Origin: Candidatus Nitronereus thalassa
Lineage (GTDB): Bacteria; Nitrospirota; Nitrospiria; Nitrospirales; UBA8639
Reading direction: 5' to 3'
Length of the DNA: 64,000 nt
Assembly: GCF_032191465.1 (NCBI RefSeq)
Contig: NZ_JAQOUE010000001.1
Span: 1,798,001 to 1,862,000 of the forward strand
Both the position numbers and the translations under genes were made by a program. Below, one piece after another: positions 49,388-53,657 of the stretch (position 1 is the first letter of the stretch; every line of letters begins with the position of its first letter). The notes under the pieces are model-generated. The model was not told the DNA's origin. It did not search any database and was given only the letters and a program-made list of their open reading frames with translations.

Positions 49388-50599
49388 CTAGCCAATGACC
49401 GAGGCCATATTAAAAATCGGAAGATACATCGCCATCACAATAAACCCAATGCCGATTCCTAACACGACGATAATGAGTGGTTCAATGAGTGCGGTTAGCG
49501 ACACAATATCCCGATTGACCTCTTGTTCATACAAATCCGCAACTTTTTCCAAAGTTGAGTCCAGGGATCCTGTCGACTCTCCAACACGCACCATTTCGGT
49601 GACAAACGGAGGAAATACCCCGCTCGCCAACAGAGGATCGGCCAAGGAATGTCCTTCGCCCACACTTCGTTGAGCTTCGCCTAGCGCATGCTCCAACCGA
49701 CGCAATCCAGAAGTTCGTCCGGCAAGGGTCAGACCTTCTAATATGGGCACGCCACTTTTCAACAGTCCGCTTAACGTGCGAGCGAAATGCACCACTGAGG
49801 TTTTTAACCACACCGTCCCCATCAACGGGATCTTCAACAACAGACGTTCTCGAAAAGTTTGGCCCCATTCTGAACGCAACAGTCTTTTCATCAAAAACCC
49901 CACGCCCACCCCCAATGAAAGGAGAAATAAAATATACGAATTCATAAATGCACTCACTTGAAGGACCCACTTGGTTGGCCAAGGCAACGCATCTCCCAAA
50001 TCCGTGAAAAGGGGGCCGAACATTGGGATGACCCACATTACCAAAACGGCGAGCACAGAAAGTGCCACCACCAACACGACGCAGGGATAAGCCAAGGCGG
50101 CTCGGACCTGATGGGTCAGCTTCAATCGTTTTTCTAAAGAGTCGGCCAATCGCTGCAGGGTCACATCGAGCATTCCACTGGCCTCCCCGGCCTCCACCAT
50201 GCCGACATACCAAGGAGAAAACACTTGAGGATGCGCTCGCAATGATGCCCCCAATGAATTGCCGGATTGTACTTGCTGCGCTACATGATTGAGAGTCTCT
50301 TGCAACGTCTGGTCAGTGCTATGCCGAGCCACGGTCTGCAACCCTTGCAAAAGGGGAACACCAGCTTTCACCATGGTCGCTAATTGCAAGGTCAACACCA
50401 CCAAGGCACGGGGCTTTACTCGCAGGCTCGTTAACGAAAAAAGGGACAACGAAATGGGTGCAGGTTTCTCGCGAATCGAAGTCGCGAGAATTTCCTGTTT
50501 TCGCAAGAGGCGAGAAGCCTCCCGCGAATCCTTTGCAGTAATTTCTCCACGGCGGCGGCGCCCTTGTCGAGATTGTCCATGATAGAGGAAGACAGGCAT
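49388..50599 (-). CDS. pilC: Type IV pilus / type II secretion inner-membrane platform protein (PilC/GspF)
   Basis: 403 residues from ATG 50599 (MPVFLYHG), with AGGAG only two to three bases before it. It has two T2SSF domains (about 70-195 and 270-400), each followed by membrane segments (about residues 170-195, 220-240 and the last 25). SGNSLGASLRAHPQVFSPWYVGMVEAGEASG is the family hallmark segment. It anchors the assembly ATPase. Order pilB-pilT-like-pilC supports a pilus role, but no pilin or secretin lies in the window. Confidence 0.93.
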   Translation of the reverse strand: MPVFLYHGQSRQGRRRRGEITAKDSREASRLLRKQEILATSIREKPAPISLSLFSLTSLRVKPRALVVLTLQLATMVKAGVPLLQGLQTVARHSTDQTLQETLNHVAQQVQSGNSLGASLRAHPQVFSPWYVGMVEAGEASGMLDVTLQRLADSLEKRLKLTHQVRAALAYPCVVLVVALSVLAVLVMWVIPMFGPLFTDLGDALPWPTKWVLQVSAFMNSYILFLLSLGVGVGFLMKRLLRSEWGQTFRERLLLKIPLMGTVWLKTSVVHFARTLSGLLKSGVPILEGLTLAGRTSGLRRLEHALGEAQRSVGEGHSLADPLLASGVFPPFVTEMVRVGESTGSLDSTLEKVADLYEQEVNRDIVSLTALIEPLIIVVLGIGIGFIVMAMYLPIFNMASVIG

Positions 50600-50714
50600 A
50601 GCTCCTAAAGAAAAAACGTTGTTCGTATCTGGTAAAGCGTATCTCGTAAAAAAACGAGATGCGAGAGGCAACCAACGAAATACAGGGTTTTTAGCACGAA
50701 ATACGAGCGACGCA

Positions 50715-51806
50715 TTATCCTCGCATTCTCTGATCCGTTCGATGAATCATCTGCCGCAATTCATCGGGCGTACCCGATTGCACCAGAGCAGAAGTGCCGG
50801 AAATCATCCGTCGCCGATACAGATCCGCCAAAGCCTGATTCATCGTTTGCATGCCATGCTTGGCCTGCCCGGTCTGCATAATGGAATAGATTTGTCGAAT
50901 CTTATCTTCGCGAATCATGCCTCGAATCGCGGGAGTCGGCATGAGCAATTCCAGCGCGAGGACACGCCCAGGTGCTTTCACCTTAGGAACAAGGGCCTGC
51001 GCCACCATTCCCTCGAGCACCAAAGCGAGTCGATGCCGAATAAGCGCCTGTTGCTCTGCAGGAAACGCCTGCACCAAACATTGCAACCCCAATAAGCATG
51101 ACGAAGTACACATGGATAGCAACACAAAAATCCCGGACTCCGCTAGACTGATGGCGGCCTCAATCGTTTCACGATTTCCCGCCTCGCCTACCAGGACGAC
51201 GTCGGGATCTTCCCGCGACACCCCATCAAGGGCCGAGGAAATATCCGGAACATCACCGCCGATGTCGCACTGCGAGACAAAACCCTTTTTATCGGAGTGA
51301 ACAAATTCGATGGGCTGCTCAAACGTCAGAATATGGGCTCGACGTTCATCATTGAGTTTGTCGATGAACGAAGCCAGGGTCGTTGTTTTTCCGCTTCCGG
51401 CAGGGCCCGCGACGATCACGAGACCTTGGCGTTTTTTTGTCAACTCGCCAAACACTGGAGGAAGCCCCAGAGCTTTTAACGAGGGGATGTGAAGTGGAAT
51501 CAATCGAATGGCGAACGCGGGCATTCCACCCTGCGAATAGGCATGGCAGCGAAATCGACCCATGCCTTCGAGAGAAACCGTAAAATCTCCAAGCGGTTGC
51601 TTGCCCCTGGATCGATCCACTAATAAACCTGATAGAAGTTCGTTCCGTAATTGCCCAAGATTCTCGACGGACAAGGGTGGGGCATCGAGTGGGACCAGCT
51701 GACCATCCACCCGAATTCGGGGAATGCGATTCGCGACCAGATGCAAATCCGATCCGCCACGTTCCACCAGGATGGAGAGAAAGTTTTGGAGATAACTCAA
51801 GACCAT
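50715..51806 (-). CDS. PilT-like ATPase with degenerate catalytic motifs
   Basis: 363 residues, PilT length and architecture. The PAS-like N-terminal domain opens GGSDLHLVANRIPRIRVDG, and Walker A is intact (GPAGSGKT, 134-141). Several retraction-ATPase motifs are changed: the Asp box EDP reads EQP (163-165), Walker-B-associated GEMRD reads GEAGN (207-211), and the His-box TLHT reads SMCT (231-234). The C-terminal AIRNLIRE region survives as AIRGMIRE. The catalytic Glu (208) remains. It may bind ATP but hydrolyse poorly, acting as a modifier of pilus retraction. It lies between pilB and pilC. Confidence 0.85.
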   Translation of the reverse strand: MVLSYLQNFLSILVERGGSDLHLVANRIPRIRVDGQLVPLDAPPLSVENLGQLRNELLSGLLVDRSRGKQPLGDFTVSLEGMGRFRCHAYSQGGMPAFAIRLIPLHIPSLKALGLPPVFGELTKKRQGLVIVAGPAGSGKTTTLASFIDKLNDERRAHILTFEQPIEFVHSDKKGFVSQCDIGGDVPDISSALDGVSREDPDVVLVGEAGNRETIEAAISLAESGIFVLLSMCTSSCLLGLQCLVQAFPAEQQALIRHRLALVLEGMVAQALVPKVKAPGRVLALELLMPTPAIRGMIREDKIRQIYSIMQTGQAKHGMQTMNQALADLYRRRMISGTSALVQSGTPDELRQMIHRTDQRMRG

Positions 51807-51842: not shown

Positions 51843-53657
51843 TTACCCCAATACCGTCGCACTCACCACTTCATCCATCGTCGTCAACCCAGCCTTGATT
51901 TTTCGCAATCCGCTTTGGCGCAACGACGTGGCGCCTTCCTCTTGAGCCTGCTGACGTAGACGGTCGGATGACGCGCGTTGTAAAATGAGTGATTGAAGAG
52001 CATCCGAAACTGGAAGCACTTCGTACAATCCGATCCGCCCCCGATATCCAGTCCCATGACAGACGGCACATCCCTGCCCACGGACCGGCCTCACATCCCG
52101 CGCGGCGTTTGCTGAAAATCCAATCTTCACCAATTGTTCAACAGGAATCACCTCTGGTTGCTGACACGAGGCACAGACTCGACGCACCAGTCGCTGCGCG
52201 ACAATCAATCGAAGCGACGCCGCCACCATAAACGGCTCGATCCCCATGTCCAATAAGCGAGTAACCGTCCGAACGGCATCGCCGGTATGCAGCGTGGATA
52301 AAACACGATGCCCGGTCAATGCGGCTTTTACTGCCATTTGTGCGGTTTCCCAATCTCGAATTTCCCCCACCATCATGATATCGGGATCTTGCCGCAGAAA
52401 GGCGCGAAGCACCGTGGCAAAGGTCAGCCCAATCTCTTCCTTTATCTGTACCTGAGTAATGCCGGTAAAATGGTATTCAATCGGGTCCTCCGCCGTGACG
52501 ATGTTCACGTCCGGAGTGTTGAGCACTTGCAAGGCCGAATACAGCGTCGTGGTTTTGCCACTACCCGTAGGCCCGGTCACAACGACCATCCCATCCGGTT
52601 GCTCCAACGCAGCCAGAAACTTGGCCAAGTCGGCATCATCCATTCCCAGGGAAGGAAGATCCAACGTCAATCCTGTTCGATTCAGCAATCGCAAGACGGC
52701 TGTCTCGCCATGCAAACTCGGTAAAATCGACAGCCGCACATCCACCGGCTTCCGATCATCCAAAGACACACTCAACCGTCCATCTTGGGGAAGCCGGCGT
52801 TCCGTAATATCCAACTTCGCCAAAATTTTTAATCGCGAAATCACGGCGTTTCGAAGACGAATCGGATATGTCATCTGTGTCTGCAACACGCCATCCAGAC
52901 GAAACCGCACGCGCACCGTCGTCTCAAGCGGTTCGAAATGAATGTCACTCGCACCCACTTGCGACGCGCTGCCAATCACCGTATGGACCAAATCCACAAT
53001 GGGCGAATCATCTTGAACACCAGCGTCGCCGAGTAAAGCCGGCTGGCCATCCAGCAAACTGGATGTGGCACGCTCTAGCAAGCCCATTATGTGTGATTGA
53101 TTCAATAAGGAATCCTGCCCCGACAGATCTTCGGAAGTGGATACCCCACCCGAAACGCTTTCTTGATGAAAGAATCCTTCTTCTCTGCCAACAGTGGAAA
53201 GCCCGCCTGGTGAGTCCTGTCCTTGGCTAGAGGGCCCATACAACGCGTGAAGGCATGCGCGCACATCAGCTTCACGCGCCACAATGGGAAGGATCGAACA
53301 GTCCGTACGAAATCGAAGATCATCCACCACACTGACCTGGCCTGGATTCACCATCGCGATCGTGAGACGATTCCCAATTTTTTTTAGAGGAACCAGGTCA
53401 TGTGCCTGAGCCCATTCGCAAGAAATCAATTGGGCCAAAGCAGGGTCAGGAGGCGGAGGAGGATCATGAAGCACGGGCAAGCCGTATTGTTGCCCGAGGA
53501 AGGTTAAGAGGGTGTCTTCAGAAATCGCCCCTTGCTGAACGAGAATGGTACCGAGTCGGGCTTGGGTGTTGCGTTGGACCTGAAGAGCAGCTTCCAACTG
53601 GGCATCGGAAATGCATCCGGCCTCCAATAGCAACCTGCCCATCCGTTCGCGAACCAT
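51843..53657 (-). CDS. pilB: Type IV pilus assembly / type II secretion ATPase (PilB/GspE)
   Basis: A 604-residue traffic ATPase. The N-terminal MshEN domain (about 1-140) has GRLLLEAGCI and RLGTILVQQGAISEDTLLTFL, the pattern that binds c-di-GMP in relatives. A Ser/Gly-rich linker (about 143-215) precedes the ATPase: SDIHFEP, Walker A GPTGSGKT (362-369), intact GEIRD and STLHTGD. A CASC...CAVC zinc site follows near residue 515-545. All motifs lost in the neighbouring PilT-like protein are intact here. Confidence 0.95.
   Translation of the reverse strand: MVRERMGRLLLEAGCISDAQLEAALQVQRNTQARLGTILVQQGAISEDTLLTFLGQQYGLPVLHDPPPPPDPALAQLISCEWAQAHDLVPLKKIGNRLTIAMVNPGQVSVVDDLRFRTDCSILPIVAREADVRACLHALYGPSSQGQDSPGGLSTVGREEGFFHQESVSGGVSTSEDLSGQDSLLNQSHIMGLLERATSSLLDGQPALLGDAGVQDDSPIVDLVHTVIGSASQVGASDIHFEPLETTVRVRFRLDGVLQTQMTYPIRLRNAVISRLKILAKLDITERRLPQDGRLSVSLDDRKPVDVRLSILPSLHGETAVLRLLNRTGLTLDLPSLGMDDADLAKFLAALEQPDGMVVVTGPTGSGKTTTLYSALQVLNTPDVNIVTAEDPIEYHFTGITQVQIKEEIGLTFATVLRAFLRQDPDIMMVGEIRDWETAQMAVKAALTGHRVLSTLHTGDAVRTVTRLLDMGIEPFMVAASLRLIVAQRLVRRVCASCQQPEVIPVEQLVKIGFSANAARDVRPVRGQGCAVCHGTGYRGRIGLYEVLPVSDALQSLILQRASSDRLRQQAQEEGATSLRQSGLRKIKAGLTTMDEVVSATVLG

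Follow-up and report, generated by a model that had tools for sequence, protein, structure and literature searches.

PilT is the motor that retracts bacterial pili, and the usual gene order around it is pilB-pilT-pilC. The roles of several residues in this family are well described. In PilB, the glutamate of the Asp box holds magnesium and the histidine of the His box contacts the gamma-phosphate (PMC5424180). In Pseudomonas aeruginosa PilT, H229A and E204A each abolish twitching (PMC6858323). Natural inactivation of PilT by a single residue is already known: Vibrio cholerae MO10 carries PilT R206S, which causes a retraction defect, and PilU must cover for it (PMC6762196). ATPase-dead PilT made in the laboratory (K136A, E204A) still lets PilU drive retraction in V. 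cholerae, so a non-hydrolysing PilT can be a structural part or an adaptor (PMC6762196, PMC9815625). Single-ATPase pili, such as those of Caulobacter with its bifunctional Tad ATPase CpaF, have no dedicated retraction ATPase (PMC11300603, PMC12019362). In model bacteria, PilU or hyperpiliation obscures any role that PilT has besides ATP hydrolysis. Apart from MO10, the open-licence papers searched gave us no direct precedent for a PilT pseudoenzyme or for a natural loss of pilT. Graded, clade-wide erosion of PilT with the rest conserved and a final deletion was not found there either, Nitrospirota included.

We analysed a stretch of 64,000 nucleotides from Candidatus Nitronereus thalassa, referred to here as the window. 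Its operon has the order pilB-pilT-pilC, followed by ispE, prs, rplY and pth, and the sister species (G002) has the same order. The three pilus genes were as follows.

51843..53657, minus strand: PilB, the extension ATPase (MshEN + T2SSE), with intact motifs, lying 36 bp upstream of pilT
50715..51806, minus strand: PilT ortholog, eroded, 363 aa, the only PilT/PilU-family gene of the genome
49388..50599, minus strand: PilC platform protein, downstream of pilT; the mechanical ORF begins at 50671

The pilT reading frame is full length and has an ATG start with a Shine-Dalgarno-like AAAGGA just upstream. Judging from similarity, the start of pilC is likely the ATG at 50599. The window PilT passed the curated PilT/PilU cut-off of TIGR01420 (331.3 vs 319.1 bits), and among solved structures its best relatives, over the whole length, were those of Geobacter PilT4. 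An AlphaFold2 model built with 26 sequences had the PilT fold (pLDDT 81, pTM 0.79), and Foldseek matched it to ATP-bound G. metallireducens PilT4 (6OJX) with a TM of 0.83. The confidence of the model was lowest at about residues 160-190, near the eroded site.

Compared with canonical PilT (G. metallireducens PilT4, 6OJX; P. aeruginosa, 3JVV), the window protein is alike in its full-length homology, at about 46% identity. It also shares the Walker A motif, the Asp-box Glu, the catalytic Glu, the AIRNLIRE region and the position in the pilBTC operon. However, it lacks the His-box histidines, the equivalents of R206 and R239, the Asp-box Asp and the GELRD Asp. The motifs are listed below, with equivalents in P. 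aeruginosa/V. cholerae PilT numbering given before the window residue.

51381..51407, minus strand: Walker A, GPAGSGKTT, residues 134-142; Lys140 kept, T136 replaced by Ala and S141 by Thr
51312..51320, minus strand: Asp box, EQP, residues 163-165; Mg-binding Glu163 kept, Asp164 replaced by Gln, also in the sister species
51174..51188, minus strand: Walker B region, GEAGN, residues 207-211; catalytic Glu208 (E204 equivalent) kept, Arg (R206 equivalent) replaced by Gly210 and Asp by Asn211
51129..51131, minus strand: first His-box histidine (H222 equivalent) replaced by Ile226
51105..51116, minus strand: His box, SMCT for TLHT, residues 231-234; the gamma-phosphate-contacting His (H229 equivalent) replaced by Cys233
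51078..51080, minus strand: conserved Arg of INRIVD (R239 equivalent) replaced by Cys243, gone in all four eroded PilTs
50907..50930, minus strand: AIRNLIRE motif, kept as AIRGMIRE, residues 293-300

An initial annotation of this DNA had described three broken motifs in pilT beside an intact PilB. The three changes (EDP to EQP, GELRD/GEMRD to GEAGN, TLHT to SMCT) were exact, the neighbouring PilB does have intact motifs, and Walker A and the C-terminal AIR motif persist as was claimed. The losses extend beyond that list. Both His-box histidines (H222 and H229, now I226 and C233) and both members of the active-site arginine network (R206 and R239, now G210 and C243) are missing, and the Arg of an NQRE-like motif has become C180. 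Three residues of a functional retraction ATPase, K140, E163 and E208, are present, and so are the N-domain arginines R84, R86 and R101. By homology the window protein is PilT; by the residues compared, it does not belong among the functional retraction ATPases.

We asked whether the losses exceed chance. In an alignment with 25 intact relatives, 107 columns were at least 95% conserved, and residues 159-250 were taken as the ATPase segment. The window PilT kept 63 of 68 invariant residues outside this segment and 21 of 39 inside it. The losses are therefore concentrated in the Asp-box/Walker-B/His-box segment (18/39 vs 5/68 elsewhere; Fisher test, P = 5e-6), and 22 of 23 C-terminal invariant residues were kept. 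Of 80 relatives that a similarity search drew from GTDB genomes, 79 kept all of K136, E204, R206, H222, H229 and R239; the one that did not was the sister species. Sequencing error, which might have restored the motifs once corrected, was rejected as the source of the changes because the sister species, whose PilT is 67-68% identical, has D164Q, D211N and NSA to SSC in common with the window; there was also no frameshift.

These losses very probably impair catalysis. Normal motor activity is very unlikely because the window PilT combines several losses that cripple PilT elsewhere. A slowed or altered but active ATPase with weak pilus retraction would be consistent with the presence of Lys140, Glu163, Glu208 and the N-domain arginines. 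However, single changes of R206 or H229 abolish or cripple PilT in other bacteria (PMC6762196, PMC6858323), here they are combined with the H222 and R239 losses and D164Q, and the sister species is without the catalytic Glu itself. We regard this alternative as improbable.

Another explanation is a non-cycling subunit that mixes with a canonical PilT or with PilU, either within hetero-hexamers or as stacked rings; in its favor, ATPase-dead PilT lets PilU drive retraction in V. cholerae (PMC6762196, PMC9815625). We surveyed the window genome (G000), which is 4.01 Mb in 2 contigs and 98.7% complete. Six T2SSE-family genes were found: the window pilT, three of PilB/GspE type (the adjacent pilB, a T2SS-like gene near C1:356 kb and an MSHA-like gene near C1:1887 kb) and two of CpaF type. 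None of the other five is a PilT/PilU gene. The lack of a second PilT/PilU gene in the genome excludes mixed rings with an intact PilT, and we found no precedent for PilB as a mixing partner, which leaves this explanation extremely improbable. The initial annotation had called the gene a paralogue and proposed a search for a second intact pilT and mixing tests with canonical PilT. The search returned nothing in this genome, and the mixed hexamers have no partner gene. The window gene is an ortholog that was inherited vertically, the one pilT copy in the genome, and it belongs to the pilBTC operon of a type IV pilus. Of that interpretation, the loss of residues needed for retraction ATPase work agrees with the published mutants, and the paralogue and the mixed hexamers fall away.

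MO10 resembles the window lineage in that the Arg next to Walker B was lost in a natural genome and PilT is otherwise full length. In MO10, however, one strain acquired one change recently and PilU compensates for it, whereas here many changes are fixed across genera and there is no PilU. The role of ATPase-dead PilT in the laboratory needs hydrolysis by PilU, which is absent here, and the Walker A Lys, replaced in K136A, is kept here.

Eroded PilTs were found in four genomes of three genera: the window genome, the sister species, G022 (genus g8) and G019 (genus g5). The equivalents of R206 and R239 are missing in all four. G022 is at an early stage, with TLHT intact and the two arginines replaced. 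In G019 the His box is lost as well and EDP is kept. The sister species, the closest genome with pilT, has EQP, VEAHAN for VGELRD (Ala at the position of the catalytic Glu) and AVQT for TLHT. Its pilT (L008, C81:36101-37141) also has a single in-frame TAG before the C-terminal quarter, which may be a read error, a recent mutation or a real truncation. The region past the TAG is 78% identical to the window protein, as conserved as any part. In the PilT tree, the four eroded PilTs grouped inside the PilT clade of the family (support 94/88). On these sequences, an ortholog has eroded in one particular lineage; it is not an old, separate paralogue. Two further candidates were rejected. L009, in a third genome of the window's genus, is another PilB/GspE-type gene and not pilT, and what looked like a C-terminal PilT fragment in G021 belongs to an intact PilT interrupted by the end of a contig.

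Other relatives have no pilT. In all 14 g2 genomes, a low-threshold search returned PilB-sized matches only and no gene of the PilT family. Ten pilT-less genomes were examined at the sequence level, nine of genus g2 and one of genus g6 (G020), and in all of them pilB adjoins pilC with only tens of bases between. In a tree of PilB and PilC, the genomes with eroded or absent pilT formed one clade (92/89) with the intact relatives outside, and genus g2 was the sister of the window's genus (100/100). The PilB motifs are intact in nearly all genomes of this clade. A natural series from intact through partly eroded and eroded to deleted can be seen, in which the pilus-retraction motor was retired stepwise: the catalytic site and then the whole gene were removed in graded steps, and PilB and PilC were kept. 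The pilT-less g2 genomes would be similar to Caulobacter in managing pili without a dedicated retraction ATPase, but CpaF is a bifunctional Tad ATPase, and a reversal of PilB would be speculative.

Between the window genome and the sister species, the counting method gave dN/dS values of 0.133 for pilT, 0.103 for pilB and 0.105 for pilC, which are rough because dS (about 1.5-1.7) is near saturation. That pilT is close to pilB and pilC argues against a free pseudogene, despite the in-frame TAG of the sister species; a neutral pseudogene would be expected near 1 and to carry stops and frameshifts, and the frame of the window copy is intact. The two PilTs were identical at 94% of the invariant residues outside the ATPase segment and at 56% inside it, and at 62% of the ordinarily variable sites, which is above the value for invariant sites in the segment. 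Eighteen positions were lost in both proteins, and at 11 of these the same new residue was found, so much of the site damage predates their split. PilT was thus conserved as a whole after the damage to the catalytic site, and the site itself drifts.

The main rival to a maintained non-motor role is a slow relic: retraction became unneeded, the ATPase site was the first to go, and the protein would now be functionless with deletion ahead, as in g2. The in-frame TAG in the sister species and the deletion of pilT in g2 and g6 agree with this. So does the divergence of PilM/N/O/P between the window genome (C2, L187 7716-10530) and the sister species (L188 8316-11107), which show 41-50% identity and dN/dS of 0.21-0.27, vs 84-97% identity for the neighbouring rpoN, rapZ and aroC. 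This fast divergence suggests that the whole pilus system might be changing its role. On the other hand, a relic does not readily account for a dN/dS of 0.13 at a dS of about 1.7 in a gene whose site had been damaged beforehand, for a window copy without frameshift or stop that has kept its C-terminal invariant residues, or for the conservation downstream of the TAG. We consider a relic rather unlikely.

We somewhat favor the explanation that PilT is no longer a motor and that its ring is kept in a Nitrospirota pilBTC lineage giving up powered retraction. R206, R239, the His-box histidines and the Asp-box Asp were lost stepwise. Purifying selection continued to act on the fold, on Walker A and the Asp-box Glu, and on the N-domain arginines and AIRNLIRE region; the sister genus has lost pilT but not PilB and PilC. 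We infer that the window protein forms a PilT-like ring, binds ATP and can sit on PilC. ATP hydrolysis would be too slow or nil for pulling pilins out. Any action of the protein at the base of the pilus would therefore be that of a passive occupant, a brake or an adaptor, by which PilB is opposed or tuned. The pili would then be static or would retract without a motor. Against this explanation, residual hydrolysis is possible because Lys140, Glu163, Glu208 and the N-domain arginines are kept. The TAG of the sister species and the relatives living without pilT count against a useful role.

For a maintained non-motor role of the window PilT, we see about an even chance. The non-cycling subunit of the initial annotation would fit with purifying selection and with the persistence of the ATP-binding and AIRNLIRE parts. 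A more specific form, which we put forward only tentatively, is that selection has kept the ring across tens of percent of protein divergence since the catalytic site was lost. With equal caution, the selected ring might be bound to ATP without hydrolysing it and serve on PilC as a clamp or adaptor, either setting the number of pili or keeping them extended. The natural series offers a way to test an ATPase-independent contribution of PilT and to study pilus machines without a retraction motor.

Several other pilus loci were observed. A conserved rpoN-rapZ-pilMNOP-aroC-aroB locus lies at C2:127.7-130.5 kb of the window genome, with equivalents in the relatives. In every family member that we looked at, pilQ was absent next to pilMNOP. 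This absence is shared by eroded and intact members alike, and it is therefore not tied to PilT; loss of a dedicated secretin was rejected as a correlate of the erosion. The sister species (99% complete) had no secretin gene, and the g2 genomes checked had one MshL-like secretin, with mshM/mshN genes in the two loci read (G016, G015). An MSHA-like pilus cluster was found at C1:1871-1890 kb of the window genome, about 10-28 kb beyond the right edge of the window, with mshI-N-like genes, PilB- and PilC-type genes and several large pilin-like proteins.

We also noticed a dispersed heptamer repeat, (ACGARAT)n, in intergenic DNA, often as inverted pairs. There were 54 matches in the window genome, 41 in the sister species, 21 in G025 and 1 in G022, and none in G016, G019 or G028 or for the backward-read control. 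Sites include 50696-50712 of the window, C1:1882000-1885600 and elsewhere in the same genome, and C81:37207 and 37273 in the sister species. One copy stands in the pilT-pilC spacer, and other copies give false N-terminal extensions (SRNTRYEIRDT...) of pilin-like ORFs.
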